From Pedobacter panaciterrae (GTDB lineage Bacteria; Bacteroidota; Bacteroidia; Sphingobacteriales; Sphingobacteriaceae): a stretch of DNA of 64,000 nt. The notes under the pieces were generated by a model, which was given only the letters and a program-made list of their open reading frames with translations, was not told where the DNA came from and did no database searches. This document shows, piece by piece, positions 2,773 through 42,522 of the stretch (positions within the stretch are counted from its first letter, which is position 1; each line of letters starts with the position of its first letter). The stretch lies in assembly GCF_013204795.1 (NCBI RefSeq), contig NZ_JABMKW010000020.1:1674001-1738000 (forward strand), written 5' to 3'. Made by a program: the position numbers and the translations under genes.

Positions 2773-4029
2773 CTACCTAAAAAGTATAAATGCTATGATT
2801 AAAGTGATGATAATATTGAAGCCTTGTGCAATTAAAAAGGCATAGAAAGGTTTCTTACTGTTCTTACCAAACAGGTCCGCAAAATTGGTTTCTAATCCGA
2901 TACTGGTAAAGGCAAGTACAAACCAAAGTCCCTGTAAGTTCTTTAAGCTACCTTTAACTTCGGCATTTACTTCTGGAGTAATGAAGAAAGAAAATAATAA
3001 TGAGGCCGCAATAAAGCCGATTACAAATTTAGGGAAACGCTCCCAAATCACTTTAAGCGTTGGTTTACTTTCTTTATCTTTTCCGGCAGGATGTTGTGTG
3101 TATGTCCAGTATACTGAAATCGCAAATGCTGCAATACCTAACAATACATTTTGAGAAAATTTAACAATGGTACTGATTTTTAACGCTTCCTCTCCTACCA
3201 AAGAACCTGACGCGACTACTGCCCCAGTTGTATCTATACTACCGCCTAACCATGCGCCTGTAACTGCTTGCGGAAAATGAAAGTAGGCCGCAATATAAGG
3301 CATAAAGATCATCATAGGTATTGCCGTAATAAGTACCATGGATATCACATAGGATAGTTTTTTTGAATCGCCTTTAATGGCCCCTGATGTAGCTATTGCT
3401 GCTGATACACCACAAATAGAAACTGCACTGGAAATCATCATGGTTAACTCATCATCTATCTTCATTTTTTTACACAGCCAAAATGCAAAGTACCATACAG
3501 AAAGCACTACAACCAAGGCTTGGATTAGGCCCAGAGAGCCCGCCTTTAATACATCAGAAAAGATTACACTTGTACCTAACAACACCAACCCTATTTTAAC
3601 AAACAGCTCGGTAGATAAAGCTGATTTAAACCATTCTGGTAACTTAAAAAAGTTACTGATTGCCAAACCAATAGCCAGACTAAAAATTACTGCTTCCAAA
3701 TTCAATGCTTTAACCTGGCTATTGCCTGCAAGCACAAGCGCTATCATGGTTAAAACGTAAACAGATGGAAAGGTTAGCACTGCGCTTTTAACAGATTTCC
3801 CTGTTAAAAAAGAACCCAATGCAGCTATGATGATTACCAGTATAAATTGCAATCCAATATACCCAAGGTTGGATGCTGTAAGTACTGATGAGGTGAGATC
3901 AGCTATGCTGGACCAGTTAAATACTGGAACGGGCAATAGCAGTCCTGAAAGCGTTAAAATGATTGTTAATGCTCCAAGGATAACTACTACCCAATCTTCA
4001 TGAATGTTTAGTTTTTTAGTTTCTGACAT
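2773..4029 (-). CDS. YeiH/UPF0324-family putative sulfate exporter
   Basis: A 418-aa very hydrophobic protein with about ten membrane helices and a short cytosolic N-terminus. It matches the YeiH (PSE, putative sulfate exporter) family in length and in motifs such as AIGLAISNFF, SVSICGVSAAIA and a GSIDTTGAVVASG loop. Family members are thought to move sulfite/sulfate or similar anions across the inner membrane, notably in organisms that release sulfite from organosulfonates; the substrate here is an inference. It is the last gene of the seven-gene SusCD operon, 39 nt after the oxidoreductase. With the Cys-rich leader peptide at the front of that operon, it points to a sulfur-related role for the whole unit. 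Confidence 0.85.
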   Translation of the reverse strand: MSETKKLNIHEDWVVVILGALTIILTLSGLLLPVPVFNWSSIADLTSSVLTASNLGYIGLQFILVIIIAALGSFLTGKSVKSAVLTFPSVYVLTMIALVLAGNSQVKALNLEAVIFSLAIGLAISNFFKLPEWFKSALSTELFVKIGLVLLGTSVIFSDVLKAGSLGLIQALVVVLSVWYFAFWLCKKMKIDDELTMMISSAVSICGVSAAIATSGAIKGDSKKLSYVISMVLITAIPMMIFMPYIAAYFHFPQAVTGAWLGGSIDTTGAVVASGSLVGEEALKISTIVKFSQNVLLGIAAFAISVYWTYTQHPAGKDKESKPTLKVIWERFPKFVIGFIAASLLFSFFITPEVNAEVKGSLKNLQGLWFVLAFTSIGLETNFADLFGKNSKKPFYAFLIAQGFNIIITLIIAFILFR

Positions 4030-4068
4030 TTGAATTTAGTTTGATTTGTGTATTGTGTTTGTTTTGTT

Positions 4069-5502
4069 TTAAATTGTGATAGAGAAAACGTCTTTTAAGG
4101 CGCGTTTTGCGGCGTGATAACCACACATTCCATGTACTCCCCCTCCCGGAGGAGTTGATGAGGAACACAGATATAGACCCTTTGCAGAAGTTCGATAAGG
4201 TGAACTGCGTAAAGCTGGTCTTGTAAAAATCTGTCCAAGGTCAATTACACCACCGTTAATATCTCCTCCTATATAATTTGGATTGTAAGCCTCCACCTGT
4301 GCGGTATTCATGGTGTGCTTTGCCAATATCCTATCTCTGAAACCGGGAGCAAAGCGCTCTATTTGTTTTTCAATAGTTTCAGTCATATCTGTTACCGATC
4401 CATTTGGCACATGACAATAAGCCCATGCCGTATGCTTTCCTTCCGGAGCCCTCGATGTATCATATAAACTTTGCTGTGCAAGTAATACAAAAGGTTTGTC
4501 GGCATGTTTACCCTGCCAGCTAAGCTTTTCAGATAAGGTAATTTCTTCCAGCGTATTGCCAATATGTACCGTTCCAGCGCGACGTGCTTCTTTTGCAGTA
4601 AAGGGAATGGCTTCATCCAATGCCCAATCAACTTTAAAAACGCCCATTCCGTAGCGATATCTTTCCAATTGCCATTTATAAATGGAAGAAAACTTATGAC
4701 CAGCTATTTGCAACAATTGCTTTGGTGTTACATCAAATAATACCGTTCGGGAAGAAGGCAATTCATCTAAAGATTTTATATAACGTCCCGTTTCAATTTT
4801 ACCTCCTAACGCAATAAAATAAGATGACAATGCATTTGCAATTTCTTTTGATCCACCCACGGGAATAGGCCATCCTTTTAGATGTGCTGCAGCCATTAAT
4901 ACTAACCCTATTGCCGATGTTGTTAAGTTAGACAGCGGTTGAATAGAGTGTGCTGCCATTCCGGCCCATAATCCTCTTGCGGCTTTAGTTTTAAATCTTT
5001 TAGCTAAGAAAGTTGCCGATGTAAGTGCATTTAATCCAAATTTAGCCATAGCAATGGGGTGTTTAGGAAAATGCAAAGGACCAAGAACATCGACTGCTAT
5101 ATCTGGCCAGTCTTTAACAAGCGGCTTTAATAATTTAAGATAGGCTTGTTCATCGTCGCCAAGCAATCTTGCAGTTTCTTCTATAGAACTTCCCAGGACA
5201 GCCGCCGTACCGTCATCAAATGGATGAGCAGCAGCAAGATCTGGAAATGTATAAAACAATCCATAATCCTGAAGCGGAAGTGTATTAAAAAATGGCGAGC
5301 CAATTGCAAGCGGATGAATAGCAGAACAAACATCATGCACAAAGCCAGGTAAGGTAAATTCGGCAGACCTTAATCCGCCACCAATCTCATTCTTTCCCTC
5401 AATAATCAGTACCGACAGGCCTTCCTGTTGTAATGCTATGGCAGCTGCTAAACCGTTTGGCCCTGAACCCACCACTACTGCATCAAAATCTGGTTTTCCC
5501 AC
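4069..5502 (-). CDS. FAD-dependent oxidoreductase, phytoene desaturase-like (CrtI/PYROXD2 type)
   Basis: A 477-aa flavoprotein with an N-terminal FAD-binding Rossmann motif (VVGSGPNGLAAAIAL, residues about 10-24) followed by the acidic residue that binds the ribose (IIEGKNEIGGG). A C-terminal motif (SSSTPPGGGVHGMCG) is typical of phytoene-desaturase-like amine-oxidase superfamily proteins. No signal peptide or membrane helix is seen, so it is probably cytosolic or membrane-peripheral. No other carotenoid genes are nearby, so carotenoid synthesis is unlikely; the closer relatives are the uncharacterised PYROXD2-like group. It starts 6 nt after the TIGR01777 epimerase and sits in the SusCD operon. 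The substrate is unknown. Confidence 0.85.
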   Translation of the reverse strand: MGKPDFDAVVVGSGPNGLAAAIALQQEGLSVLIIEGKNEIGGGLRSAEFTLPGFVHDVCSAIHPLAIGSPFFNTLPLQDYGLFYTFPDLAAAHPFDDGTAAVLGSSIEETARLLGDDEQAYLKLLKPLVKDWPDIAVDVLGPLHFPKHPIAMAKFGLNALTSATFLAKRFKTKAARGLWAGMAAHSIQPLSNLTTSAIGLVLMAAAHLKGWPIPVGGSKEIANALSSYFIALGGKIETGRYIKSLDELPSSRTVLFDVTPKQLLQIAGHKFSSIYKWQLERYRYGMGVFKVDWALDEAIPFTAKEARRAGTVHIGNTLEEITLSEKLSWQGKHADKPFVLLAQQSLYDTSRAPEGKHTAWAYCHVPNGSVTDMTETIEKQIERFAPGFRDRILAKHTMNTAQVEAYNPNYIGGDINGGVIDLGQIFTRPALRSSPYRTSAKGLYLCSSSTPPGGGVHGMCGYHAAKRALKDVFSITI

Positions 5503-5508
5503 TATAAT

Positions 5509-6441
5509 CTATTTCTTACTTAATGATAATTTATTTTCGTTTAACAACCTTGTTACTGCATCGTGAAGGTAGGGATATTTGAATTTAAATCCATTCTTTT
5601 CCAAAACTGACGATACCACTCTTCTTCCTGAAAGGACAAGTTCTGCCTCTGTACCAATAAAAACAGCACCTATTTTAATAAATATAGCAGGGTTTGGTAA
5701 CCCAAAGGGAATGTTAACAGACTGTCTGATCGTTTTCATAAATTCTTTATTAGTTACCGGAAAAGGGCTGGCTGCATGAACAATTCCTTTAAAATCAGCA
5801 TCTAAGATCGTATATCTAATCAGATCCGTAAAATCCTGCTCATGTATCCAGGTCATGTATTGGTTACCTGTGCCTATTTTGCCGCCTAGTCCAAACTTAG
5901 CCATATTCAGGAATGGTTTTAAAATGCCACCATTTTGTTGCAAAACCATTCCTATTCTTAAAAACACTTTTCGCGTTTTCGGAGTATCATATCTATCGAA
6001 AGCTTTCTCCCAGGCCTTACAAACTTCCGGAGAAAAACCACTTCCTGTAGGTGAATCTTCAACTTTCACTTCATCACCAGAATTCCCAAAAATAGCTGCA
6101 GATCCCGCATTAACCCATACTTCAGGCGGTTTGTTCAATTCTCCTATTGCCTTTCCAATAATTAGTGTTGCATCCACTCTCGAGTCAATGATTTCCTGTT
6201 TATTAGCATCTGTGTAACGGCAGTTTACAGATCTCCCTACCAGATTAATTATAGCCTTGCTGCCTTCCAGTTCCTTAGTCCAATTGCCTATGTTTTTGGC
6301 ATCCCAAAGTATATATCTGATATTCTGTTCATTCTTCCTTATCGTTCTGGTCAGCAACACAATTTCATAATCAGGAAAAGCTTTTATTATTGCAGATCCT
6401 AAAAAACCCGTTCCTCCGGCTATAACTATTTTATTACTCAT
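5509..6441 (-). CDS. TIGR01777-family NAD(P)-binding epimerase-like protein
   Basis: A 310-aa extended SDR-type protein. The N-terminal motif IAGGTGFLGSAI binds the dinucleotide, and NLVGRSVNCRYTDANK plus the C-terminal GAVFIGTEAELVLSGRRV segment (DUF1731) identify the TIGR01777/YfcH family. The family reaction is not known; related SDRs are nucleotide-sugar epimerases or reductases. It lies 12 nt after the second DoxX-like gene and 6 nt before the FAD oxidoreductase, so it is almost certainly translated from the same operon mRNA. Its role in the putative sulfur-linked pathway is unknown. Confidence 0.88.
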   Translation of the reverse strand: MSNKIVIAGGTGFLGSAIIKAFPDYEIVLLTRTIRKNEQNIRYILWDAKNIGNWTKELEGSKAIINLVGRSVNCRYTDANKQEIIDSRVDATLIIGKAIGELNKPPEVWVNAGSAAIFGNSGDEVKVEDSPTGSGFSPEVCKAWEKAFDRYDTPKTRKVFLRIGMVLQQNGGILKPFLNMAKFGLGGKIGTGNQYMTWIHEQDFTDLIRYTILDADFKGIVHAASPFPVTNKEFMKTIRQSVNIPFGLPNPAIFIKIGAVFIGTEAELVLSGRRVVSSVLEKNGFKFKYPYLHDAVTRLLNENKLSLSKK

Positions 6442-6453
6442 TGAATTTAAGGT

Positions 6454-7974
6454 TTAATATTCCTTTACTGAACTATATCGGCCTTCAACCAAAGGATACT
6501 TTTTATCAGATCTGTCTAAGACTACATAAATAGAATCTCTAAATTCATTAATTCCGTTAAGAATAATTCTATTTGCCGTGGGCCTGCTGTAGTGCAACAC
6601 TTGCGTTTCTTCTTTGTGATTCTTGTTTTTGTTCTGCAAATAAAGGATATGGTTTACTGTATCTGCTTTATAGAAAAAGTACCTGCGTTCACCGGCCATA
6701 CCACCAACCTCCCATCTGGTTACCCCCAGGTCACGGTTTTTCTTTAGCTTGTCTAACTGATCAGAATCTTGAGTATTTACCTGATTAAGTCTATTATTCT
6801 TTTTATCATTCTTTACACGGAGCGGAGAATAACCAATCATGCGGTCGGCAATGGCCCCACGATTGGTTTTATAGCTTAATGACGACCAACCTTCAAATGT
6901 TGCATCTTGCCAGCGTATGGAGTCTTGAGGGGTATAAGGAACTACCTTGTTATTTAACCTGTATTCTGTTACGTTATAATAGCCTTTTGCTCCCGCTAAT
7001 CCGGGAGTACTCGGGATGTTATAATTGTTTCCGTTAAAAAAACCATATGCCCACAAACCAGCCGCAACCGGAACAAACAAGAAATTAAAAGTCCATTTTA
7101 CACCTGCGGCGAGATTGCGCTGCCATTTTTCGGAGATAACCGGCTGATAACGGTAAGGTAAGATGTCTTTTTCATTTACCAGCAGATTCCAGATTTTAGG
7201 TAAATCGTACCACACTATAAATATACCAATAATGGCAAAATAAGCCGCAGGAACTGCTACACCAGCATCATAAGCATGGTTGGCAATACAGATGTTAAAT
7301 GTTACCACAGCCGCTAGTGCCGCTCCCAAAGGAGAAGTTTTTCTATTTAACAACAACAGTCCGGGAAGGATTTCGGCGAATCCAAGAAATACAGTATACC
7401 AGAAAGAAACACCAACATGCGACCAGTATAACTTCTTCTCCGCCATATCGATAAATGGCGTATTTAGCATCCCAACTGTAGGAAAAACCATTTGCATCGG
7501 AAAAGCTTTCTTTAATCCCCATCCAATCATCCCATATGCCAGGCGATAACGAGCAAGTACCCTGATCCAATAATAAAGCTTACTATATTCTGTGGATTTC
7601 TTATCAAAAGCTGTCCAGATCAATCCTCCAACAATAGATCCTGCAAATAGCAGAATCAAATTAATATAATTTAATAACCCAAACACCCCTTCTTCTGATT
7701 CTATGGTTACAATCTGTGGGGGCCAGAACGCTACTATGGCTTGAAAATCATGATAAGTGATCTCCGAAAACTTTAAAGCGAAAAGCTCTTCATAAAACTT
7801 TGGATAAGTGGGAATACACAAAAAAAGCATATACAAAAAGCCTATCCGAAATGCTATTTTCTGATAGTTCTTCCATTTGCCGGTTTTAGGCGATTCTTTA
7901 ACTACTTCCTGCTCTTGTTTGTCTGCTGCTGCTGCTTCTGCAGGAGCATCCAGGTTTATCTCTAATGTGGACAT
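6454..7974 (-). CDS. DoxX-like membrane protein with C-terminal soluble domain (paralogue 2)
   Basis: A 506-aa protein homologous along its length to its upstream neighbour at 7997. After a hydrophilic N-terminus there are about six to seven hydrophobic segments (residues about 45-320) with a DoxX-like core (YRLAYGMIGWGLKKAFPMQM, then FLGFAEILPGLLLLNRKT). The roughly 180-residue C-terminal domain has motifs shared with the neighbour: GYYNVTEY, RWQDATFEGWSSL, YKADTVNHILYLQNKNKNH and INEFRDSIYVVLDR. DoxX proteins are quinone-linked subunits in thiosulfate oxidation and in other redox complexes; that link is only by family. It has a longer insert (about 385-420) than the neighbour. Spacing of 22 nt upstream and 12 nt downstream places it in the SusCD operon. 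Confidence 0.75.
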   Translation of the reverse strand: MSTLEINLDAPAEAAAADKQEQEVVKESPKTGKWKNYQKIAFRIGFLYMLFLCIPTYPKFYEELFALKFSEITYHDFQAIVAFWPPQIVTIESEEGVFGLLNYINLILLFAGSIVGGLIWTAFDKKSTEYSKLYYWIRVLARYRLAYGMIGWGLKKAFPMQMVFPTVGMLNTPFIDMAEKKLYWSHVGVSFWYTVFLGFAEILPGLLLLNRKTSPLGAALAAVVTFNICIANHAYDAGVAVPAAYFAIIGIFIVWYDLPKIWNLLVNEKDILPYRYQPVISEKWQRNLAAGVKWTFNFLFVPVAAGLWAYGFFNGNNYNIPSTPGLAGAKGYYNVTEYRLNNKVVPYTPQDSIRWQDATFEGWSSLSYKTNRGAIADRMIGYSPLRVKNDKKNNRLNQVNTQDSDQLDKLKKNRDLGVTRWEVGGMAGERRYFFYKADTVNHILYLQNKNKNHKEETQVLHYSRPTANRIILNGINEFRDSIYVVLDRSDKKYPLVEGRYSSVKEY

Positions 7975-7996
7975 TTTAATTTCTTTTAAGTGACAA

Positions 7997-9358
7997 CTAG
8001 ATTTTTACAGGTTTACGGCGACCCTCGAACATCATATACTTCTTATTTATTTTGGCAAGAACCACATGTATCGAATCTCTGTTTTCGTTAATACCCGACA
8101 GTACTATTGTGGAATCATTTGGCCGCTCATACTTGAGCTGAAGCTTTTCATTCCGTTGATTTTTGTTCTTATTCTGTAATGAAAGCGTATGGTTTACAGT
8201 ATCGGCATCATAGTAGAAATAGTGGCGACCGGCATATCCTGCCAGTTCATAGTTTCTATCAATATCTTTTTCATGAACTTCTTCGCCGCTCGACAAGTCT
8301 ATTTTAACGGGGCGATTCACTTTAATCGTTAGTGTCGACCATTTTTCGAAAACCACATCCTGCCATCTGTTCGGATCAGTTTTGGAGTATGGTATAGTAT
8401 CTTTATTTAATACAAACTCCTTTACATTATAATACCCAAATGCTTTACTTAAACCTGGTGTATGAGGTATTTTATAAGGATCATTTGTGTAATTATCATA
8501 AGCCTTATATGCAAAGAGTACAACAAAGGCCAGAAATGCTATTTTTAATCCTTTCCGCGCATTTCTTAAACGACTATCCGTAAATTTTGGAATAAATTTA
8601 TTGGCATAAGCCGGTGTTTCTTTAATGAGCAGATCATATAATCTGGGGATATCGTATACAAATAAGAAAGTTGCTAAGAGCACAATAAAAGTACTTAGCG
8701 CCTGCTCACCTATATCATAAAATCCATTTGCTACCGCTACATTCCCTAAAAAACCGAATATTAGTCCTACACCAAACGTGACTGTCTTCCTGTTAAAAAG
8801 CAAGAAGGCAGCAAGTATTTCAACAAAACCTAAAAAAGATTCGTACTTAGGTGCTATGCCTACCGTTTGGAAATATATTTTCCAGGCAAAATAATCTCCA
8901 TAATTAGTCAGCAGATTACTTAACGAAGGATATGGCATCTGCAACGGAAAAAATTTAATAAAGCCATAAGTAACCAGTACAAACGCAAGGCGATATCTCA
9001 CCAATACCCTTAACCAGTAATATAACTTGGTATATTCCTTTCTTTGGGCATCTGCTTTACCCCAAATGACAGCACCTACGGCTGCAATAACGATAAATAC
9101 TACCCAGTTTGCAAAACCTCCAATACCCCATTCAGCAATTTGATTGTCAGAAAAAAACTGAGGTTGGTACTTAGTTAACTTAAACAGATCGTGAAAATGG
9201 AGGTGAAGCCAATTGATAGAGAATAGCTCTTTGTAGAACTTCCAGTCTATAGGAATAATCTGTATCACGAGAAAGATAAAGAAGAACCGGAACAAATTCT
9301 TTTCCCAGGGTTTCCACTCCCGTGATTCATTGTTTGTGTTGGTTGTTATTTTGCTCAT
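7997..9358 (-). CDS. DoxX-like membrane protein with C-terminal soluble domain (paralogue 1)
   Basis: A 453-aa paralogue of the next gene in the operon. Hydrophobic segments cover about residues 20-300, including the DoxX-like stretch YRLAFVLVTYGFIKFFPLQM and FLGFVEILAAFLLFNRKT. The C-terminal domain repeats the motifs of its partner: YYNVKEFVLN, RWQDVVFEKWSTL, YDADTVNHTLSLQNKNKNQ and INENRDSIHVVLAK. Two adjacent paralogues suggest a heterodimer. It starts 29 nt after susD. No metal- or haem-binding Cys/His motif stands out. The function is unknown; membrane redox activity is inferred from the DoxX resemblance. Confidence 0.75.
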   Translation of the reverse strand: MSKITTNTNNESREWKPWEKNLFRFFFIFLVIQIIPIDWKFYKELFSINWLHLHFHDLFKLTKYQPQFFSDNQIAEWGIGGFANWVVFIVIAAVGAVIWGKADAQRKEYTKLYYWLRVLVRYRLAFVLVTYGFIKFFPLQMPYPSLSNLLTNYGDYFAWKIYFQTVGIAPKYESFLGFVEILAAFLLFNRKTVTFGVGLIFGFLGNVAVANGFYDIGEQALSTFIVLLATFLFVYDIPRLYDLLIKETPAYANKFIPKFTDSRLRNARKGLKIAFLAFVVLFAYKAYDNYTNDPYKIPHTPGLSKAFGYYNVKEFVLNKDTIPYSKTDPNRWQDVVFEKWSTLTIKVNRPVKIDLSSGEEVHEKDIDRNYELAGYAGRHYFYYDADTVNHTLSLQNKNKNQRNEKLQLKYERPNDSTIVLSGINENRDSIHVVLAKINKKYMMFEGRRKPVKI

Positions 9359-9387: not shown

Positions 9388-10713
9388 TTAATTTCTGCCG
9401 TAACCCGGGTTCTGAACAAGTGATGGATCGGCAATGATCTCTCCTGCCGGTATTGGAAAAATGTATTTATTAGGATCGTTCAGGTTCAGGACTGCAGGGG
9501 CTCTACCTGTTCTGACCAAATCAAACCACCTGAAAGGTTCCAGGGCAAACTCTACACGCCTCTCATTTTCTATAGCTAACAATACTTCATCCTTATTCAG
9601 ACTTGCGCTTATTTCAGGCACGCTCGACCTAACCCTTACCGCATTTATATCTGCAATTGCACCGCTTAAATCAGGTACTGTTTTAAGTACACGTGCTTCG
9701 GCCCTGTTAAGAAATAATTCTGCCGTTCTGATAATGTATCCAGCAGAAGTGTTAGTGGGATAAATACCACCAATAAATTGTCCTGCAGCATTTTTCACAG
9801 AAAGGATTTTACGATCACCACCAACAGCAGGATCATTCAAAAGATTGTGAATTACTGCTTTTGGTTCAAGTGCCCTGTTACTGGTATTCCATTGAGCGTA
9901 ACCCGCATTAACATCATTTACACTGTAAGAAAGTTCTAATACAGACTCTGATGTTCCCGCAGCAAGATTAAAAGGTTTAATCAATTTATACCCGGGATTT
10001 GCCAAAACAGTATTGATATCGGCTTCGGCCTCAGTATATTTTTTCTGATATAGATAAAGTCTGGCTCTCAATGCAACTGCTGTAGACCTGGTTATCCTGT
10101 TCCTCACAATAGTAGTAGGCAGCAAGGGTTCTGCCTTGTTTAAATCTTCGAGTACCTGAGCAAACACTTCCGCCTGTGTACTTTGCTTAACGCCTAGTTT
10201 ATCAGCCACCACATTAGTTGGTGTTAAAAATATCTGCACATTGCCAAACACCCGGGCAAGATCAAAATAAGATAAGGCCCTAATGGCATAAGCCTCACCT
10301 AACAGCTGATTTTTAAGATCATTACCAAGCTTATTATCTGTTACCAGGGGCACCTTTTCAATAATATGATTGGTGCGGTTAATGGTGTTGTAGAAGTTCC
10401 CCCAATAGGTAGATAAGAATGCAATATCTGACCGCAGATCATAATTGATTACATTCAAATCCGTTTGGGCATTGTTTAGTGATTTAATGTCTCCACCCGA
10501 TTGAAGTATTGTATTCTGGAAAGCGCTTCCATAATTAAGACTTGCCAATCCGCGGTAAGCGCCTCTTACTGCAGCTTCTGCTGATGATCTATCGTAGATC
10601 GTAGTTTCATCGGGTATGGTATCGTATGGTGAAACTTCTAAATATTTTTTGCAGGAGAACAGTGATGAACTGATCAGCAATAAAAATAGGAGTGTTTTAT
10701 TTTTAGTATTCAT
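9388..10713 (-). CDS. SusD/RagB-family nutrient-binding outer-membrane lipoprotein
   Basis: A 441-aa protein. I chose ATG at 10713 because it gives a lipoprotein signal (LLLISSSLFSCKKYLEVSP, lipid-attached Cys at about 22); the longer frame back to 10875 lies inside susC. SusD hallmarks are the N-terminal YLEVSPYDTIPDE segment, TPR-like helices and the C-terminal block ERRVEFALEPFRWFDLVRTG. SusD is the lid of the SusC transporter and captures substrate at the cell surface. The gene begins 10 nt after the susC stop. The substrate is often a glycan, but no glycosidase is in this operon and the co-transcribed genes point elsewhere. Confidence 0.95.
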   Translation of the reverse strand: MNTKNKTLLFLLLISSSLFSCKKYLEVSPYDTIPDETTIYDRSSAEAAVRGAYRGLASLNYGSAFQNTILQSGGDIKSLNNAQTDLNVINYDLRSDIAFLSTYWGNFYNTINRTNHIIEKVPLVTDNKLGNDLKNQLLGEAYAIRALSYFDLARVFGNVQIFLTPTNVVADKLGVKQSTQAEVFAQVLEDLNKAEPLLPTTIVRNRITRSTAVALRARLYLYQKKYTEAEADINTVLANPGYKLIKPFNLAAGTSESVLELSYSVNDVNAGYAQWNTSNRALEPKAVIHNLLNDPAVGGDRKILSVKNAAGQFIGGIYPTNTSAGYIIRTAELFLNRAEARVLKTVPDLSGAIADINAVRVRSSVPEISASLNKDEVLLAIENERRVEFALEPFRWFDLVRTGRAPAVLNLNDPNKYIFPIPAGEIIADPSLVQNPGYGRN

Positions 10714-10723
10714 GATTCTAGTA

Positions 10724-13700
10724 TTAAAATGAAATGTTGGCTCCAAACTGAATTCCTCTTGGTTGTGGTGGTGTGGCTGTATCCAAACCGTCGAGATTCT
10801 GGCCTGCACTACCCGAACTTTCCGGATCAGCACCTGAATATTTTGTTTTAAGCCAAAGGTTAGTTCCCAAAACATACAGCCTTACTTTGCCCAACCTTAC
10901 TTTAGAAGTTACTGATGCAGGCAAAGTATAACCTAAAGAGGCCGCTTTAAGTCTGATAAAAGATCCATCCTCCAGATATCTGCTGTTCTGTTCGATGTTG
11001 TAATTATTACCCACACTGGTAACTCGAGGAGTATTGGTTATATCTCCTTCTTTTTGCCACCTGTTCAGTTGGCTCTTTAAAATCGATCTGGAGGCATCTC
11101 TTGTGCCCCCACCTTCCAAAATGTATTTGTTAAAATTGAATACTTTATTGCCATATTGGTAAGTAAACAATACGTTAAAATCAAATCCTTTATAGCTGAT
11201 ATTATTAGAAAAACCTCCAAAGAAATCAGGAATGAGATTACCCATCAGCTGACGATCTGCCGTGGTCACAGTAGTTCCTGTGGTTCCATCGGCATGCTGA
11301 AATATAGCATCTCCGGTTGTAGGGTCAACATATAGCTGTTTGTATAACCAGAAACTTCCCAGTGCAGCCCCTTCCTGTGTTCTTCTATACTCTCTGGCTT
11401 CAAAGGTGATGGGGCTAACCAGTTTCTCCGCGCGGTTTACATTTCTTGAAATGTTAAAATTTGCTGACCATTCAAAGTCCTTAGATTTAATAATTGTTCC
11501 GGTTATTGCCAGCTCAATTCCCTTATTACTTACTTCACCGGCATTAGCTAATGTGCTTGAATACCCTGTTGACTGTGGCACAGGCAAATAAAGCAAAGCA
11601 TCTGTGGTGTATTTGTAGTAAGCATCAAAATTCAGAAACAACCTATCCTTAAATAAACCCAAATCAATTCCTGCGTTGTAGGTAGTGGTTTTTTCCCATT
11701 TCAAGTCAGGATTTTTTAATTGAGCAGGTGCTACGCCAGGTTTAGGTCCGCTTGTCAGGTTATCAGGATACGCCGCCGAGCCAGACCATAAACCCAATGC
11801 GGCATAGTCATTAATACCATTTTGATTCCCGGCAGAACCGGCACTTAGCCTAAGCTTGAATTCAGATATGGTTTCTGAATTTTGTAGAAAGGCTTCCTGT
11901 TTGATCCTCCATGAAGCGCCTATACCTGGAAAGAATCCCCAGCGATTATTGGCACCAAATTTAGATGAACCATCAGCTCTGATTACGCCTTCAAGAAAAT
12001 ATTTGTTATCGAGACTGTAGTTCAGCCTACCAAAAAATGAAGCAAGTGTAGACTTCGATCTTCTCTGATCTGCTGTTCTTACAGAAGCAGCAGAGATTTG
12101 CTGAAAGAAATTATTTGGGAAACCCTGCCCTACTTCCTGAGCTACCTTAACATCGGTACTCTGAATACTATTTCCAATTAAAACAGTAATATTTTGTCTC
12201 GAATTAAGTGCCTTTACATAGGATAATGTTTGTTCATTCTGAATAATTGTGCTGGTAGTAAACACCTCTTTTCTATAACCCAATGGATTGGGGCTGCCAC
12301 CAATAATTGTTTGATCGTTAAAGAACTCACGTTCATTATAGTTATCGTAATCTAAACCAATTGAAGATTTAAACTTAAGACCGGGTAAAATATTAACTTC
12401 TATAAACTGATTACCTATATACCGAATGCTTGTGGTTGAGATATTGGTAATATCAGTATTTACAAGATTATCAATATTTTCATAAATAGAACCTCTGGCT
12501 GGCGTTCCATCTGCGTTGTATAAAGGTAAATAAGTCGGGTGATGCAATGCGGCAAGTAAATGTCCGGCCTGCTGACCGGCGCCACCTCTAACTTGCTGTC
12601 TGAATGTTCTGTAAACACCATTACTTGAACTAAGGGTAACTTTATCATTCAGCTTGCTATCAAGATTTAGCTTAAAACTTCCACGCTGAAAATCAGCTGG
12701 CTTTAATATCCCTTCCTGATCGGTATAACCGGCACCTATATTATAACGGATCTTCTCACTTCCACCTTGAATACTGAGGTCATAATTCTTAACCTGCGCA
12801 GTCCTGAAAACCCTGCTTAATCGATCATAAGTTTGCTGATCTTCTGGGTTACCTCTTCCTGGAACACCATTAATAACATCTGTTACTGGTCTGAATGGAC
12901 GATTCTCGTAGGTTTGATTTAGGCTAGGCTTGTCTTTACCTGAATTTACCCACTGTTCATTAACCAACATGGCGTGCTCCGGACCGGTAGTGAGTTCCCA
13001 TAATCGATCAGGATCTGCCTTTTGCCAGCCATGTGATATCTCTAAATTATATTTTGTTTTACCTAAAAGGTACTCTCCTCTTTTAGTGGTTACTAAAATA
13101 ACTCCATTGGCTCCACGAGAACCATAAATTGCAATAGCACTTGCATCTTTCAGTACTTCAATGCTTTCAATATCCGCGGGATTGATATCCGCCAGGGGCG
13201 ATGTTTTTTTCCCACCCAAATCAAGAGTCGACAAAGAGTTGTTATTCACAAATACACCATCAATAACATATAATGGCTCGTTACTCGCGTTAATAGAAGC
13301 GGTACCTCGCACCTGTACTTTTACACCTTCTCCCGGAGAACCTGAGTAAGTTCCCACCTGGACACCTGCCGCCCTACCTTGTAACTGGGCATCAAAACTG
13401 GCTACAGGAATCTGCTTCGTTTCGGCAGCATTTACCTTAACAATAGCGCCTACAACACTTTTACGCGTTTGGGCACCATACCCAACAACTACAACGTCAT
13501 TTAGCTGACTTGCACTCTCTTTTAATTCTACCAGGATTGGGCTTCCATTGGCCACAACCTGTTTTTTTTCGTAGCCTACATAAGTAATTTCTAAAGTATA
13601 AGGGAATTTCTGACCGGTAACAAAATCGAACTTTCCATTTTTGTCTGTCTGGACAACATGTGTAGTACCGGTAATGTGGATACTTACCCCAGGGATTCCA

Positions 13701-13879
13701 AGCTTTGTTACAGCGTCAATAATTTGACCTTTAAGAGTAGAATTAATAAGAGGTTGAGTTTGGGAGAAGGAAATGAGCGGTAAAAAGATCATTACCACGA
13801 TACTGCTCTTCAATAGCAGTGTCTTTTTTAACAAGGAATAAGCACTATATAAATGCTTACCCTTTTTAAAATTTTGCAT
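10724..13879 (-). CDS. SusC/RagA-family TonB-dependent outer-membrane transporter
   Basis: A 1,051-aa transporter, usual length for SusC. It has a signal peptide ending near FLPLISFSQ, a carboxypeptidase-regulatory-like domain (KGQIIDAVTKLGIPGVSIHI through YVGYEKKQVV, about residues 50-115), the SusC-specific VVVVGYGAQTRKSVVGA motif, a plug domain (GRAAGVQV, PLYVIDGVF, DIESIEVLKDASAIAIYGSRGANGVILVTTK) and a 22-strand barrel ending in a terminal Phe. With SusD it imports oligomeric substrates using TonB energy. First structural gene of the operon, preceded by a leader of about 260 nt with a Cys-rich leader peptide and hairpins. The start codon lies between 9-bp inverted repeats (13862-13870 and 13883-13891). 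Confidence 0.97.
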   Translation of the reverse strand: MQNFKKGKHLYSAYSLLKKTLLLKSSIVVMIFLPLISFSQTQPLINSTLKGQIIDAVTKLGIPGVSIHITGTTHVVQTDKNGKFDFVTGQKFPYTLEITYVGYEKKQVVANGSPILVELKESASQLNDVVVVGYGAQTRKSVVGAIVKVNAAETKQIPVASFDAQLQGRAAGVQVGTYSGSPGEGVKVQVRGTASINASNEPLYVIDGVFVNNNSLSTLDLGGKKTSPLADINPADIESIEVLKDASAIAIYGSRGANGVILVTTKRGEYLLGKTKYNLEISHGWQKADPDRLWELTTGPEHAMLVNEQWVNSGKDKPSLNQTYENRPFRPVTDVINGVPGRGNPEDQQTYDRLSRVFRTAQVKNYDLSIQGGSEKIRYNIGAGYTDQEGILKPADFQRGSFKLNLDSKLNDKVTLSSSNGVYRTFRQQVRGGAGQQAGHLLAALHHPTYLPLYNADGTPARGSIYENIDNLVNTDITNISTTSIRYIGNQFIEVNILPGLKFKSSIGLDYDNYNEREFFNDQTIIGGSPNPLGYRKEVFTTSTIIQNEQTLSYVKALNSRQNITVLIGNSIQSTDVKVAQEVGQGFPNNFFQQISAASVRTADQRRSKSTLASFFGRLNYSLDNKYFLEGVIRADGSSKFGANNRWGFFPGIGASWRIKQEAFLQNSETISEFKLRLSAGSAGNQNGINDYAALGLWSGSAAYPDNLTSGPKPGVAPAQLKNPDLKWEKTTTYNAGIDLGLFKDRLFLNFDAYYKYTTDALLYLPVPQSTGYSSTLANAGEVSNKGIELAITGTIIKSKDFEWSANFNISRNVNRAEKLVSPITFEAREYRRTQEGAALGSFWLYKQLYVDPTTGDAIFQHADGTTGTTVTTADRQLMGNLIPDFFGGFSNNISYKGFDFNVLFTYQYGNKVFNFNKYILEGGGTRDASRSILKSQLNRWQKEGDITNTPRVTSVGNNYNIEQNSRYLEDGSFIRLKAASLGYTLPASVTSKVRLGKVRLYVLGTNLWLKTKYSGADPESSGSAGQNLDGLDTATPPQPRGIQFGANISF

Positions 13880-13928
13880 AACTTTAAAAAGTTTTAATTA
13901 ATTAAATTCTATTGGTTGAAACGAGTTG

Positions 13929-14022
13929 GCATTTCAGTAAGTGATTGGCGTTGCGTACTGAATGCTTTGATAAAGGCAGGATTCTAATCCTGTCTTTATT
14001 ATTTCTTTATAGCTTGAAATGC
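13929..14022 (-). promoter_or_regulatory. Putative attenuator: hairpins and alternative pairing between leader ORF and susC
   Basis: On the minus-strand transcript, after the leader ORF stop, I can fold three elements. H1: 13999-13987 pairs with 13982-13970 (12 of 13 bp, one A-C mismatch, 4-nt loop TAGA). H2: GCATTCAGTA (13965-13956) pairs with TACTGAAATGC (13939-13929) with one bulge. Alternative H3: GCATTTCA (14022-14015), immediately at the leader stop codon, is perfectly complementary to TGAAATGC (13936-13929), the 3' arm of H2. H2 and H3 cannot coexist. A ribosome stalled on the Cys codons would cover the H3 5' arm. No classical U-run follows either hairpin, so whether the control is on transcription or translation is open. 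Confidence 0.6.
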
Positions 14023-14117
14023 TATTGCATGGAACAGCAACAACAGTGAGAAGAAAATCTCAATCGATTTAGACTGCAGAGCGCAATTTCTTTTTTTAAG
14101 TGTAAAATTCTTTTCAT
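14022..14117 (-). CDS. Cys-rich leader peptide (31 aa, four consecutive Cys codons)
   Basis: ATG at 14117, TAG at 14022. The peptide is basic at the N-terminus (MKRILHLKKEI) and ends SSHCCCCSMQ; five of 31 residues are Cys, four in a row (codons TGT TGT TGC TGT at 14045-14034). It starts about 25 nt after the predicted transcription start of the susC operon and ends 142 nt before susC. Runs of one amino acid's codons in a short 5' ORF are the hallmark of ribosome-mediated attenuation, and Cys-containing leader peptides are known upstream of sulfur-assimilation genes in actinobacteria. I infer a cysteine-sensing leader. It has no detectable transmembrane or secreted-protein character. Confidence 0.75.
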   Translation of the reverse strand: MKRILHLKKEIALCSLNRLRFSSHCCCCSMQ

Positions 14118-14147
14118 TGTTTGGTTTTGTTTCTTATCAATTCAACG

Positions 14148-14178
14148 CAAATGTAATTGCATTTTTGTTAAAAACAAA
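14148..14178 (-). promoter_or_regulatory. Bacteroidota-type promoter of the susC operon
   Basis: On the minus strand, TTTG (14178-14175), a 19-nt spacer and TACATTTG (14155-14148) match the Bacteroidota -33/-7 consensus (TTTG, TAnnTTTG). The expected start of transcription is near 14140, giving a leader of about 260 nt with the Cys-rich ORF inside. The rest of the 402-nt gap between susC and the GH43 gene is AT-rich; I see no clear consensus promoter for the plus-strand gene in it. Confidence 0.75.
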
Positions 14179-14281: not shown

Positions 14282-15259
14282 ATGAAGAAGTATCAACTTT
14301 TGCTCTGCCTTTCGTTCATAGCACTTTCCCTATCCGCACAAAAAAAATCAAAAGAGACTTCTGGAAATCCAATATTTCCAGGTTGGTATGCCGATCCTGA
14401 GGGAGCTATATTCGGCAAAGAATATTGGGTTTACCCAACCTTTTCTGCCAAATATGAAGAACAGACATTTATGGACGCCTATAGTTCCAAAGATCTTGTT
14501 ACCTGGAAAAAACATCCGCACATTCTTGATACAAGCAATGTTAAATGGGCTAAAAAAGCTGTATGGGCACCGTCAATTACTAAAAAAGGAAATAAATATT
14601 ATCTCTTTTTTGGTGCTAATGACATTCAAAATGATAATGAAATTGGTGGTATAGGTGTTGCCGTTTCAGATAAACCGAACGGCCCATTTAAAGATCTTAT
14701 AGGAAAACCACTGATCGATAAATTTCATAATGGTGCACAACCAATTGATCAATATGTTTTTAAAGATAAAGACGGACAATACTATCTATTTTATGGTGGC
14801 TGGTCTCATTGCAACGTTGTAAAATTAAGTGATGATTTTAAAAGCATTGTGCCGTTCCCTGATGGAACAACTTATAAAGAGGTAACGCCTAAGGGATATG
14901 TTGAGGGAGCTTTTATGTTTATCAAAGATGGAAAGTATTATTTCATGTGGTCTGAAGGTGGATGGACCGGTCCGGATTATTCAGTAGCTTACGCCATATC
15001 AGATTCACCTTTGGGTCCATTTAAACGTATAGATAAGATCTTAAAGCAAGATCCATCTATCGCTACCGGCGCAGGTCATCATTCTGTAATCAAGAATCCA
15101 AAAACTGGTGATTATTACATTATATACCACCGTCGTCCATTAGGAGAAACCAATGGTAATCATAGGGTTACCTGCATAGATAAAATGGAATTCGATGAAA
15201 ACGGACTGATCAAACCTATCAAAATCACTTTCGAAGGTGTAAGTTCTAATCCCCTGTAG
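14282..15259 (+). CDS. Secreted glycoside hydrolase family 43 protein
   Basis: A 325-aa protein with a signal peptide (LLLCLSFIALSLSAQ) and a five-bladed propeller catalytic domain. The family's three acidic residues are visible: general base Asp38 in GWYADPEG, pKa-modulating Asp156 in GAQPIDQYVF and general acid Glu208 in YVEGAFMF. GH43 enzymes remove arabinofuranosyl or xylosyl residues or cut arabinan; the exact specificity cannot be read here. It stands alone, diverging from the susC operon, and its last 14 bases overlap the convergent hxlR-type gene. It is probably periplasmic or secreted. Confidence 0.9.
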   Translation: MKKYQLLLCLSFIALSLSAQKKSKETSGNPIFPGWYADPEGAIFGKEYWVYPTFSAKYEEQTFMDAYSSKDLVTWKKHPHILDTSNVKWAKKAVWAPSITKKGNKYYLFFGANDIQNDNEIGGIGVAVSDKPNGPFKDLIGKPLIDKFHNGAQPIDQYVFKDKDGQYYLFYGGWSHCNVVKLSDDFKSIVPFPDGTTYKEVTPKGYVEGAFMFIKDGKYYFMWSEGGWTGPDYSVAYAISDSPLGPFKRIDKILKQDPSIATGAGHHSVIKNPKTGDYYIIYHRRPLGETNGNHRVTCIDKMEFDENGLIKPIKITFEGVSSNPL

Positions 15260-36134: not shown

Positions 36135-36884
36135 ATGATAAAGGCAGAAAGACTACAGCAGATAATAGATCACATCACTAAAGAAGGCAAAGTTCTTTTA
36201 GGAGATTTAAGTAAACTATTAAATGTTTCTGAAGACACGGTAAGAAGAGATATTAAGGAATTATCAGATGAAGGTTTGCTTAAAGCAGTTCGCGGAGGAG
36301 CAGTCTTGCACTCTCCTATTCCAAGACATTATAGAGAAAGAGAAAATTACGACGTTGGCCATAAAGAGATAATTGCGGCCAAAGCCCTAAAATTCATTAA
36401 GGATGGCCAGGTAATCATATTCGATGCCGGAACATCAGCTTTAGCTGTTGCAACCGGCTTACCTAAGGAAATTAACATAACCGTAGTAACCAATAATTTC
36501 CCTGTAGCCAATATCTTGGAAGACCACCCAAATGCAGAGGTGATTTTTGTAGGCGGACGATTAAATAAATCCTCCTTCTCTACAATGGGGCATGATGCCA
36601 TACAAGCCATTAAAAATGTTCGTGCCGATATTTGCTTTCTGGGTATCTGCAGCATCGACCTAAACATTGGGGTTACAGGCTTAAATTATGAAGATAGTCA
36701 GATGAAGAAAGCGATGGTTGAAACATCTAAACATATTATTGCACTTTCAACATTTGAGAAATTGGATACAGCTGAAAATTACTACATCTGTGCAACAAAT
36801 GAGTTAGATACCATCATCACAGATATAGATCCAAAGGAAGGCAAGCTACAACGATATAAGGATGCTGGTATTGAAATTATTTAA
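36135..36884 (+). CDS. DeoR/GlpR-family transcriptional regulator
   Basis: A 249-aa repressor with the N-terminal DeoR helix-turn-helix (AERLQQIIDHITKEGKVLLGDLSKLLNVSEDTVRRDIKELSDEGLLKAVRGGA) and the C-terminal DeoRC sugar-phosphate-binding domain (VIIFDAGTSALAVATGL, VVTNNFPVANIL, FVGGRLNKSSF). It probably responds to a sugar phosphate and controls the divergent phosphatase gene and perhaps uxuA-uxaC. Its last 8 bases overlap the end of the convergent MG2-like gene. Confidence 0.93.
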   Translation: MIKAERLQQIIDHITKEGKVLLGDLSKLLNVSEDTVRRDIKELSDEGLLKAVRGGAVLHSPIPRHYRERENYDVGHKEIIAAKALKFIKDGQVIIFDAGTSALAVATGLPKEINITVVTNNFPVANILEDHPNAEVIFVGGRLNKSSFSTMGHDAIQAIKNVRADICFLGICSIDLNIGVTGLNYEDSQMKKAMVETSKHIIALSTFEKLDTAENYYICATNELDTIITDIDPKEGKLQRYKDAGIEII

Positions 36885-39606
36885 CCTGATAACGATAAAC
36901 CTGTCTTCCAAGTAAACCATCTGCGTTGATCCCTTCTACAGTTACGCGGTAAGTTCCTTTGTTATCTGAATTGAAATAACTGAGCCTGGCTTTACCTTCC
37001 TTATCAGTAACCGTTGCAGGGTTCCAATAGATAGTGCTTCTTAAATCTGCAAGGGAGTTGTTAACTTCGTTATTACCATATTTAGGTACATAGAACTCCT
37101 TTACCGAAGCAAACCCTTTTGGAGCATAATAAACTACCGATGGATCATATTTTTGACGAAAATTACCACTTTTAGTATAAATTGCCATAACAGAAGGAAG
37201 CTTTTCAGGAGGAAATCTGGCAATATAACCAGACAATAATCTTGCGGTTATAACCTTACTGTTATAGGAGAAATAGATCTTTTTTATATCAGAAACATCA
37301 GATAATAAAAGGCTCTGATAATCTTCAGGTTCAATCAAGACATCGTCTATTAATGTAACATAATATCCATTTAATAGCCAATTACCATCTTTAAAGACAA
37401 ACGAAATCCTGGTTTTATCCATTTCTTCTAAACACTCTTTAAGTGTTGCACATGGTCGCCGACTATCTGGTCGATACACTTCATCGGCCTGGCTTTCATT
37501 GATATGATTTCCAAACTCCCATCTTTTGCTCGCACTTATTTGAACTTCTCTTAGTTGCTGCAATCGGCTAGCTTTTCCATGTTTCCGCAAATCCAGATCC
37601 TGTTCAATATTATTTTCTATTGAGGCTTTAAGTACTGAAGGAATATTTGTATTGATGTCACCTATATTAGCATTGGGGGTTGCCTCGTGCTCCTTTACTT
37701 TATCGAGCTGAAGCTCTAATCTTTTTCCATTTTTCAAAGTCCTACCCTGAATGGTAAAATCAATTCCTTCGGTAATGAGCAGATTGCTGAATTTAAATAA
37801 TCCGTTCTTATCTGAGACGGTATCTAAAATCAAACCTAATTTGTTATTTACTAAAGTAACCTTACCCCCTATTACAGGCTTATTGCCTAATGTAACTAAC
37901 TTACCTGTAATGTCTGTGACTAACTTTTCGGCTTTAAATATTGGGGGTACTTGCTTGCCCAATATCAGATTCTTCCAAACAAACCGTCTATATCCTTGGG
38001 TAAGCATTAAAATATCAAGATTTGCTTTGGTTTCAACTGTGGGCTTATAGAAATAATAATTAGGCTTTTCTATATAACCTTTGATATCTGAACTTAGCAG
38101 CAACTGAGAGATTATCGAATTTTCGCGAGTTTCATCAGATGGAACTACGGCTTCATTGATTACTGAAACTGAAAAGTTTCCTACAAGGGGTTTGCCCAAA
38201 GCGTCTTTAGCATCCAGATCCAGTTCTACTTTTTCCCGCACATCATATTCCTTTTTTGAGCTATTAATTTTTAAATCCATCAAATCATTTCTCTGTAAAA
38301 AGACAATTCTTTCATTTAATGGATTACCCTCTTTGGAGAATAAACTGATCTGCAAAATCCCCGTTGGAAAATCTTTGGCAGGAATGGGAATAGATGTTGT
38401 AGATTTATTAATAGCGATACTAGCCGCGTATTGAACATCCCCCCCACATTGGACTACTAAACTAACAATCTGACCTTCCTTTTTCAAGGCAGGGCCTCCA
38501 GCATTTACCCTTACTAATATGATGTCTGTCTCTAAGTTATTATACACCGAAAGCACATAGCCATCGTCAAGCGCATCTGGCAACTTCAAGGTATTTACTG
38601 ATCCATCAGGATAGGTTATTTTCGCCTGATAGCTCTTTCCTTTCTCTGGTATCAGTTGAAAATATCCCATCCCAAGATGTTTACTTTCAAGCTCTACCAC
38701 CTCATTGTTTTCATTATCCATAATTACTCCCTTTATGGGAACGCCCAATCCATTGGCACCTGTAGCCTTAAATCCTATTCTGGACTTTACTCCATTAACC
38801 AAACCACCGCCTTCAGGAAAAAACTGAACATCTGTTTTTAATGAAGCTGTTCTTATTGGAAATGATTTAAAAATATTTGCATCCTTGGCAATTGCAATCT
38901 TTGTTAATAAGTATGAATTCAAAACTTCGCCGGGTTTTGAGCCGGGAATGTTCACAGAGATTTCACCAAGTTCATTGGTGTTACCACCCCCGGTTGCAAG
39001 TATCTGAAAGCTTTTTCTTAGTTCATACCTGATAGGTTTACCTACATAAGACTCACCTTTCTGATTGGTGTATCTTAATAAGGCACTTACTTTGGCATTT
39101 GCCTCGTCTTGTGTGTAGATGTAATCTATTTTTGCAAAAACAGTATTTGCTGCAGAGTTACCCACACTAAAGGTTCTGTCATAAAAATATTCCGGTCCGG
39201 CATTACGCATCCATTGGGTATACGCTCTTAAGCGATAATTCCCTTCTCGAATAGCGGTATCCGAAAGCACGATACTACCTTTAGCCATCCCCGCCATAAG
39301 CGGCAATTTAAGCGACTGAGCAATAGAATCACCTTCATTAATCAGCTCTACATAAACAGCGCCACTAAGTGCTGATAACTGGTGTTTGCTACCAATAGTC
39401 ACATACGTTTTAAACCATATCGTATCTCCAACAATATAATAAGGCTTATCAGTATGCAGGTAAGCCTTTTCCTGAGGATTATTCTCTGCCCAACTTTGGA
39501 GAGAAGCTAAAAGTTTCTCAATGGGTTCCTCTTCTCGGCCTGTAAAAGCCACCATGCCAATAAATGCTATTGAACAAAATAGGAAAATGGAGCGTTTCAA
39601 TTTCAT
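36877..39606 (-). CDS. Large secreted MG2/plug-like protein (909 aa, unit 4)
   Basis: A 909-aa exported protein (N-terminal hydrophobic FLFCSIAFIGMVAFTG). Domains I can see: an MG2-like macroglobulin domain (AYLHTDKPYYIVGDTIWFKTYVT, about 48-150), a second beta-sandwich (DVQFFPEGGGLVNG, about 265-345), a segment with LMLTQGYRRFVWKN (about 535), a carboxypeptidase-regulatory-like fold (ITGKLVTLGNKPVIGGKVTLVNNK, about 570-630), a TonB-plug-like stretch with VLIEPEDYQ (about 765) and a terminal motif GLLGRQVYRYQVK. Function is unknown; similar Bacteroidota proteins are annotated as TonB-receptor plug or MG2 proteins. It is the third and last of three tandem paralogues. A hairpin covers its start codon. 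Confidence 0.8.
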   Translation of the reverse strand: MKLKRSIFLFCSIAFIGMVAFTGREEEPIEKLLASLQSWAENNPQEKAYLHTDKPYYIVGDTIWFKTYVTIGSKHQLSALSGAVYVELINEGDSIAQSLKLPLMAGMAKGSIVLSDTAIREGNYRLRAYTQWMRNAGPEYFYDRTFSVGNSAANTVFAKIDYIYTQDEANAKVSALLRYTNQKGESYVGKPIRYELRKSFQILATGGGNTNELGEISVNIPGSKPGEVLNSYLLTKIAIAKDANIFKSFPIRTASLKTDVQFFPEGGGLVNGVKSRIGFKATGANGLGVPIKGVIMDNENNEVVELESKHLGMGYFQLIPEKGKSYQAKITYPDGSVNTLKLPDALDDGYVLSVYNNLETDIILVRVNAGGPALKKEGQIVSLVVQCGGDVQYAASIAINKSTTSIPIPAKDFPTGILQISLFSKEGNPLNERIVFLQRNDLMDLKINSSKKEYDVREKVELDLDAKDALGKPLVGNFSVSVINEAVVPSDETRENSIISQLLLSSDIKGYIEKPNYYFYKPTVETKANLDILMLTQGYRRFVWKNLILGKQVPPIFKAEKLVTDITGKLVTLGNKPVIGGKVTLVNNKLGLILDTVSDKNGLFKFSNLLITEGIDFTIQGRTLKNGKRLELQLDKVKEHEATPNANIGDINTNIPSVLKASIENNIEQDLDLRKHGKASRLQQLREVQISASKRWEFGNHINESQADEVYRPDSRRPCATLKECLEEMDKTRISFVFKDGNWLLNGYYVTLIDDVLIEPEDYQSLLLSDVSDIKKIYFSYNSKVITARLLSGYIARFPPEKLPSVMAIYTKSGNFRQKYDPSVVYYAPKGFASVKEFYVPKYGNNEVNNSLADLRSTIYWNPATVTDKEGKARLSYFNSDNKGTYRVTVEGINADGLLGRQVYRYQVK

Positions 39607-39659: not shown

Positions 39660-39701
39660 AAGTCTCCATTGAGGACACCCATTCAAGAAAAATAACACTT
39701 A

Positions 39702-42431: not shown

Positions 42432-42522
42432 ACGGTTTAATTTGTTTGGTTGGTTGGAATTTCATAAATATAAAAAAATATCGTGAAGAGAATATTTATT
42501 AGGTGTAAAAATTAAGAGATAA

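Follow-up and report, generated by a model that had tools for sequence, protein, structure and literature searches.

A conserved cysteine-codon leader and a predicted antisense RNA preceding a SusCD operon of Pedobacter panaciterrae

Bacteroidota take up nutrients mainly by way of SusCD operons, whose induction is commonly ascribed to the substrate of each operon acting via dedicated regulators. Leader peptides and antisense RNAs that resemble the elements considered here are described in several bacteria, in accounts that we give as far as the accessible portions of the sources go. In Actinobacteria, cys operons are preceded by Cys-run leaders without conserved terminators, for which an involvement of Rho was suggested (PMC1262725), and leaderless polycysteine sORFs of mycobacteria are cited as cysteine-responsive (Canestrari 2020, as cited in PMC13236596 and PMC9094748). 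The uORF motif uORFC-8-2 of Rhodobacterales cysS contains tandem Cys codons proposed to sense Cys-tRNA (PMC8632094), and in Flavobacterium psychrophilum leader-peptide attenuators were predicted for amino-acid operons (PMC9723704). The DonS family consists of cis-antisense RNAs of 78-128 nt of Bacteroides susC genes (PMC7366714, PMC11697453), whose mechanism is described as unknown (PMC11697453). Our search of the open-access literature, with subscription papers mostly outside its scope, turned up no Cys-run leader, either in Bacteroidota or ahead of a SusCD operon.

The leader, its promoter and the operon behind it

The window, that is, the whole stretch of 64,000 nucleotides analysed, spans positions 1674001-1738000 of contig 12 of a 6.2-Mb genome in 20 contigs. 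On its minus strand a promoter, a leader ORF (14117-14022) and the susC start at 13879 follow one another:

14148-14178, minus strand: sense promoter of the leader/susC transcript, with a -33 box TTTG (14178-14175), 19 nt and a -7 box TACATTTG (14155-14148)
14022-14117, minus strand: leader ORF between promoter and susC, 31 codons, ATG start, TAG stop, MKRILHLKKEIALCSLNRLRFSSHCCCCSMQ, ending HCCCCSMQ
14034-14045, minus strand: four consecutive Cys codons, TGT TGT TGC TGT, as read from the sequence
10724-13879, minus strand: susC homologue (TIGR04056, 795 bits)
9388-10785, minus strand: susD homologue (PF07980, PF14322)
6454-9358, minus strand: two paralogous membrane proteins (7997-9358 and 6454-7974), 40% identical to each other
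2773-6441, minus strand: rest of the probable operon, by profile matches a TIGR01777 oxidoreductase, an FAD oxidoreductase and a YeiH-type exporter
2773-4029, minus strand: YeiH-type putative sulfate exporter (PF03601, 168 bits; TIGR00698, 86 bits, below its cut-off)

A preliminary description of this DNA had reported a 31-codon ORF with four Cys codons between a consensus promoter and susC, and we confirm this arrangement at 14117-14022 of the minus strand. The promoter consensus of Bacteroidota is TTTG / TAnnTTTG, and the promoter read from the window sequence matches it exactly; the sigma-70 promoter scan of the window does not cover this consensus. NCBIfam holds no model for the two leaders of this genome, the second of which is described below, and no Rfam family scored above threshold at the window locus. 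In Pedobacter sp. V48 (locus L173) the leader peptide is identical to that of the window.

The identity of the downstream gene as susC, likewise taken from that description, is borne out by the TIGR04056 match. Of the two neighbours that it had named, YeiH is supported by PF03601, whereas DoxX, its name for the two paralogous membrane proteins, finds no significant match in Pfam or NCBIfam, and the structure model of the so-called DoxX protein is poor (mean pLDDT 55) and was left unused.

Two further observations concern the surroundings. A gene resembling family-43 glycoside hydrolases (14282-15259) runs divergently from the leader promoter, with ~100 bp between the promoter and its start codon, and shared control of this gene and the leader promoter is possible. 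Elsewhere in the window, at 36877-48102, three large consecutive minus-strand ORFs (909, 909 and 1859 aa) have similar starts, and the 1859-aa member of this tandem family looks like a fusion of two.

The same genome carries a second copy on contig 19 (L041:9727-17747; ~915727-923747), in which a leader with the peptide MEKQLLHKKEDATSIRLKLKFSAYCCCCFEQ and an antisense RNA of the kind described below lie ahead of another SusCD operon. This copy is adjoined by genes for a SoxC-type sulfite dehydrogenase (TIGR04555, 471.5 bits against a cut-off of 420) and a cytochrome c, and the region is possibly, judging from these matches, a locus of sulfite or organosulfur oxidation. The neighbours of L161 are similar in sequence to the SoxC and cytochrome c genes (a resemblance, without a profile scan), and, downstream of susCD, the loci of Flavitalea sp. 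BT771 (L172) and Niastella soli (L166) have a gene for a sulfatase (PF00884). In other Pedobacter operons an S51 peptidase gene comes after susD, in L149 by profile scan and in the others by resemblance. Links to sulfur thus recur, the YeiH-type exporter of the window among them, but they come from few neighbourhoods, the downstream genes being mainly SusCD, and do not assign a substrate to this pair. As a side observation, the susC homologue of Niastella soli is broken into two ORFs (524 and 535 aa) that overlap, owing to either a frameshift or a sequencing error.

Conservation and composition of the leader

When 145 genomes of the genus were searched at the DNA level, 23 gave matches, the stronger of which are true copies. 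From a model of the downstream region, a scan for the motif of hairpin P2 (see below) and earlier loci we pooled 42 distinct elements. The P2 scan of the genome collection yielded 28 stretches, from Pedobacter, Mucilaginibacter, Niastella, Flavitalea and Xanthocytophaga, from MAGs of their groups and from two oddly labelled MAG contigs. Removal of two chance matches, L071, which lies inside a coding region, and L169, on an Erythrobacteraceae MAG contig without susC, left 40 elements; those with masked bases (the second copy of V48 and L068/L159), at locus ends, without the loop pattern or at least 93% identical to a retained element are uncounted. A contig labelled Beijerinckiaceae (L165) has a leader and susC region like those of the Chitinophagaceae loci and, by this likeness, is probably mis-binned.

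In 32 of the 40 distinct relatives, which belong to Pedobacter, Mucilaginibacter, Chitinophagaceae and other Bacteroidota, a short upstream ORF has three to six Cys codons in a row close to its stop; many of the elements are related, and the counts are not of independent events. As a run of at least three Cys codons arises in 0.55% of 2000 dinucleotide shuffles and in none of 30 further susC genes of the window's genome, it is not a product of chance. These 30 genes (from 56 matches) have a Cys pair in two cases, and their positions are approximate, the start codon being the first in-frame ATG. In the remaining elements the leader holds a pair only (4/40) or no run (4/40: L065, L162, L168 and L174). 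L057 was counted as a pair, its correctly placed ORF ending CRYC, and in L106 the run is present only in an ORF that starts from GTG. Runs of at least four Leu codons also occur in 14 of the 40 elements; because TGY repeats in another frame give TTG/CTG, we take them to be the same repeats, an assumption made for the set as a whole and not locus by locus.

As to how the elements were found, 14 of the 40 come from the window's own genome or from queries that contained Cys codons, and among the 26 found without Cys codons in the query the run of at least three is present in 19. As an independent test, the antisense-RNA model R2, whose training rows reach into the leader in 3 of 40 cases and there no further than its last two codons, gave 12 further elements among the loci retrieved, and ten of these have the run, while the other two leaders end PCCR and CCASTCICC. 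This set was obtained from 11 by removing L213, in which the loop was mis-located and which is from the same genome as L109, and adding L230 and L237. A Cys-rich ORF at the same place in related genomes was the check that the preliminary description had named, and it is there in both sets. Within the genomes compared, conservation of an unannotated Cys-run leader before the SusCD operon holds.

Searches were also made with patterns of the Cys run. A pattern of four Cys, two arbitrary residues, Gln and a stop occurs at seven places in 6 of 61 family genomes, and only the two places in the window's own genome are leaders before susC, the others being rejected as such. A five-Cys pattern ending TRR, which also admits TGG, matches at least 157 of 295 genomes of the class; among the 29 readable matches listed none is convincingly a leader before a gene. 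Most five-Cys matches lie inside long ORFs of another frame or strand, two (L203 and L206) lie in no long ORF. The Cys-run pattern in the window's own genome gave 34 matches, and 30 loci were read on the plus strand only, the DNA and RNA models used thereafter having greater specificity.

In length the leader is more constant than in sequence. Counted from the first in-frame ATG downstream of an exact promoter, it measures 27-36 codons in 22 of 23 loci, and 23 of 31 loci have a promoter with no mismatch before the leader (23 of 32 in a recount). There is little similarity between the peptides outside the Cys run, in which the codons are 91 TGT and 34 TGC. Both sulfur amino acids are abundant towards the end of the leader, since Met is enriched beside the Cys run: it makes up 35 of 265 non-Cys residues among the last 11 as compared to 16 of 756 earlier residues (Fisher p 6e-11, kinship among the leaders being ignored). 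This count includes 39 of 42 leaders with a run of at least three, L106, L113 and L230 being left out. In four of 31 loci (L149, L154, L164 and L117) the exact -7 box ends 8-9 nt ahead of the ATG, and as the distance is so short the leader mRNAs of these loci may be nearly leaderless.

The retention of a length of ~31 residues while the sequence diverges indicates that a property of the nascent chain could matter, as it would if the leader were an arrest peptide whose poly-Cys chain senses a metal, the redox state or sulfide instead of Cys-tRNA. The number of Cys residues varies from 3 to 6, however, that of the residues after the run varies from 0 to 9, and the enrichment of Met suits a response to sulfur amino acids. 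We therefore consider an arrest peptide unlikely.

Conserved hairpins and the predicted antisense RNA

Between the leader and susC lie conserved hairpins which, by their strand preference, fit an RNA of the opposite strand and would belong mainly to it; this RNA was absent from the preliminary description. P1, P2 and their primed counterparts designate the hairpins in the sense and antisense strands, respectively:

13883-14009, plus strand: predicted cis-antisense RNA of ~125 nt overlapping the susC 5' UTR, from its fold and model R2, both ends being predicted
13891-13922, plus strand: antisense hairpin P3', a conserved structure
13928-13966, plus strand: antisense hairpin P2' with the loop UUGGCG at 13945-13950 and compensatory changes in its outer and inner stems
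13968-14009, plus strand: terminator hairpin P1' (terminator scan, 15 pairs) and U-tract of the antisense RNA
13869-13876, plus strand: weak candidate for the antisense -7 box, AAATTTTG, with one mismatch and no clear -33 box, proposed from position only

In the window, the antisense fold of 13884-14009 reaches -41.5 kcal/mol (z -7.4) and the sense fold -20.4 kcal/mol (z -3.35), so that the sense strand also folds better than nearly all of its shuffles. Among the 40 elements P2 is more stable as antisense in 39 and the opposite in one, and P1 in 32 and the opposite in six; this gain is partly due to the G- and U-rich strand, and the shuffle correction covers the window alone. Substitutions within the stems point the same way. 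P1 shows 45 sense A.C mismatches, equivalent to G.U pairs in the antisense strand, as compared to 10 sense G.U (in 42 elements, two of which were later dropped). In the inner stem of P2 only the free pairs count, because the search pattern fixed two of the four, and the free pair, which in the sense strand reads C-A in 12 elements, A-C in 2 and T-A in 26, pairs in all 40 antisense strands and in 26 of the 40 sense strands. The hexaloop UUGGCG is found in 38 of 40 elements, most of its letters being fixed by the search pattern. In L230 and L237 the antisense loop reads UUGCCG, and the sense complement is changed alongside.

The antisense structure is also conserved by covariation. In the alignment of the 40 antisense sequences 92.1% of cells are paired and 23 of 32 pairs have changed on both sides, a covariation that none of 500 shuffles reached and that structures slid along the alignment fell far below; it was counted on the same 40 sequences that trained R2 and yielded its structure. 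R2 matches the window at 13890-14014 with 101.7 bits, the window being one of its training sequences.

Terminators separate the two strands further. By criteria devised for this analysis, intrinsic terminators with a U-tract are found in the antisense strand of 29 of 40 loci and in the sense strand of two, and in the window the scan reports the P1 hairpin on the plus strand only. A conserved terminator of the sense RNA is absent, and the strand energies together with the terminator counts do not support P1 as a sense terminator.

These data bear on the possibility that P1 and P2 act within the sense mRNA, as a riboswitch or a protein site, with no antisense RNA. The z of -3.35 of the sense strand speaks for such hairpins; yet that of the antisense strand is -7.4, the free inner pair of P2 is lost in part of the sense strands and kept in all antisense strands, and the U-tract terminators are mostly antisense. 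A function of the hairpins confined to the sense mRNA is thus highly improbable.

The same counts weigh against a trp-type attenuator, in which stalling at the Cys codons would switch the sense RNA between an antiterminator and an intrinsic terminator. The Cys-run leader lies directly downstream of a promoter, a hairpin of the window 20-odd nt past the leader stop ends CCTTTAT, and RNAalifold, applied to the 16 sense sequences nearest the window, pairs the Cys codons with GCAATAGCA a short way downstream, all of which speaks for such an attenuator. As sense terminators are few and the Cys codons have no conserved partner further downstream (mean z -0.03, 31 loci), the model is nevertheless not supported, and its hairpin P1 often has A.C mismatches in the sense strand where the antisense strand has G.U pairs. 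Among leaders that have at least three Cys codons in a row, moreover, between 53 and 199 nt separate the stop from the P2 loop. The search for an antiterminator was computed for the Cys run against the downstream sequence and made by eye only for other pairings; pairing of the P2 loop with the Cys codons was not supported. We regard a trp-type attenuator as very unlikely. The preliminary description had called the Cys-codon run diagnostic of ribosome-mediated attenuation; here the run is strong evidence of a leader and not diagnostic of transcription attenuation. The proposal of that description that the leader senses tRNA-Cys by attenuation is kept as to the sensing, which is the natural reading, and not supported as to the classical attenuator, for want of sense terminators (2 of 40 loci) and of a conserved partner of the Cys codons downstream, and in view of the antisense hairpins.

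It could be argued instead that the TGY repeats have been retained in RNA or DNA for the sake of pairing or binding and that the ORF is incidental, since the order TGTTGTTGC hardly varies among the Pedobacter sequences nearest the window and RNAalifold pairs TGTTGTTGC with GCAATAGCA just downstream. Elsewhere the codon order varies, however, pairing from 10 nt past the stop onward is no better than that of shuffles (the mean z of -0.03 given above), and the run is in frame with an ATG 27-36 codons upstream (22 of the 23 exact-promoter loci) with a stop close behind. We hardly credit an incidental ORF.

The start of the antisense RNA in the window is uncertain, as the candidate -7 box has one mismatch and the -33 box is unclear. 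Exact antisense TAnnTTTG boxes occur in 10 of the 40 elements, and 10 of the 11 boxes sit 62-68 nt upstream of the loop. In Sphingobacteriaceae there is an overlap between the antisense box and the susC initiation region, and the box may owe its presence to another cause. In Chitinophagaceae the distance between box and loop is kept though the susC start codon is closer to the loop. The UUGG of the antisense loop fits the YUNR U-turn of antisense-RNA loops.

The antisense element is present without a Cys leader in L065 and L168, among others; the antisense RNA does not need the leader, and therefore the two are separable modules. In L168 (Mucilaginibacter corticis; element at ~4700, reversed strand) the antisense RNA is kept and the Cys leader is missing, the genes upstream resemble, by their sequence, those of a sigma factor and of the anti-sigma factor FecR, and SusC is of a different N-terminal type with an extra N-terminal region. 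From this arrangement it seems that the regulatory input was swapped and the antisense RNA retained.

At E values up to 1e-6, R2 matches 50 of 331 genomes of the family, in 4 of 25 genera, with strict filters that may lose weak copies. In a phylum-wide sample of 375 genomes it has two matches, in the genome of the window and in another member of its family; it was the pattern scan that supplied the copies of Chitinophagaceae and Xanthocytophaga. A model of the sense strand, R1, gathers places that resemble ordinary terminators at E values up to 0.01 (191 of 399 and 101 of 345 genomes), and its tallies were not used.

Proposed mechanism and comparison with known systems

Based on these data we propose, with a probability of roughly 60%, that the leader senses Cys-tRNA such that the operon would be derepressed when cysteine is short, and that in addition a DonS-like antisense RNA would repress susC. 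Sensing of Cys-tRNA is the natural reading of the Cys run, and it is strengthened by the enrichment of Met beside the run and by the sulfatase and SoxC neighbours in some loci. That the leader is translated, that it senses cysteine and the sign of its response we infer from its sequence and its conservation. The transcript of the operon would start at the promoter 14178-14148 and first encode the 31-codon leader, the job of which would be translation through the Cys (and nearby Met) codons just before the stop. With plentiful charged tRNA-Cys the ribosome would finish and leave and susCD expression would be low, whereas shortage of cysteine would lead to derepression.

From the opposite strand between the leader and susC a ~125-nt antisense RNA would be made, with a kissing-type UUGGCG loop and a terminator of its own, and it would probably act as a DonS-like repressor of susC. 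Its expression, its effect on susC and any coupling to the leader we infer from the conserved structure and from the position opposite the susC 5' end. Because the sense strand has almost no terminators, the leader would most probably act on susC by Rho-dependent attenuation, a mechanism proposed for the cys operons of mycobacteria, or by regulating the translation of susC in opposition to the antisense RNA. Spacers longer than 40 nt contain 322 C and 237 G, a modest excess that is weak as a Rho signal.

A further step would be to join the leader and the antisense RNA into one two-strand switch, in which the supply of sulfur amino acids gates the antisense repressor. A ribosome held at the Cys run could decide whether the nascent susC leader is captured by the UUGGCG hairpin or, alternatively, whether opposing polymerases collide. 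We raise this joint switch tentatively and consider it doubtful.

If the proposal of Cys-tRNA sensing with a separate antisense repressor is true, the Cys-run leader would tie one group of SusCD systems to the sulfur supply of the cell by translation, and it would point to organosulfur substrates for these transporters. It would also be a poly-Cys leader in a phylum for which the open-access literature searched yielded none. As a candidate susC antisense RNA, a class still poorly understood, the conserved antisense RNA with its defined loop can be tested directly.

Among the described systems, of which the following comparisons draw on the portions available, the actinobacterial cys leaders resemble the present one in that a short ORF lies upstream of the operon, the Cys run is near the stop and a conserved sense terminator hairpin is lacking. 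Here, by contrast, the phylum is another, the operon serves SusCD uptake instead of cysteine biosynthesis, the spacer holds a conserved antisense RNA and Met is enriched beside the run. The four leaders that are perhaps nearly leaderless (L149, L154, L164 and L117) recall the leaderless sORFs of mycobacteria. The window leader shares with uORFC-8-2 tandem Cys codons in a uORF and a proposed sensing of Cys-tRNA; in uORFC-8-2, by contrast, there is a U-run terminator stem, the Cys codons number two and the gene that follows is an alphaproteobacterial cysS. The leaders of Flavobacterium psychrophilum are of the same phylum and are likewise leader peptides in 5' regions; they belong to biosynthesis operons, and the portions of that source at hand name no Cys leader or SusC target.

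The antisense RNA is likened by description to DonS, as it would lie opposite the 5' end of a susC homologue, be structured and be of similar length (here predicted to be ~125 nt). It differs in being a predicted RNA, with three conserved hairpins and a UUGGCG loop, located downstream of a Cys leader.
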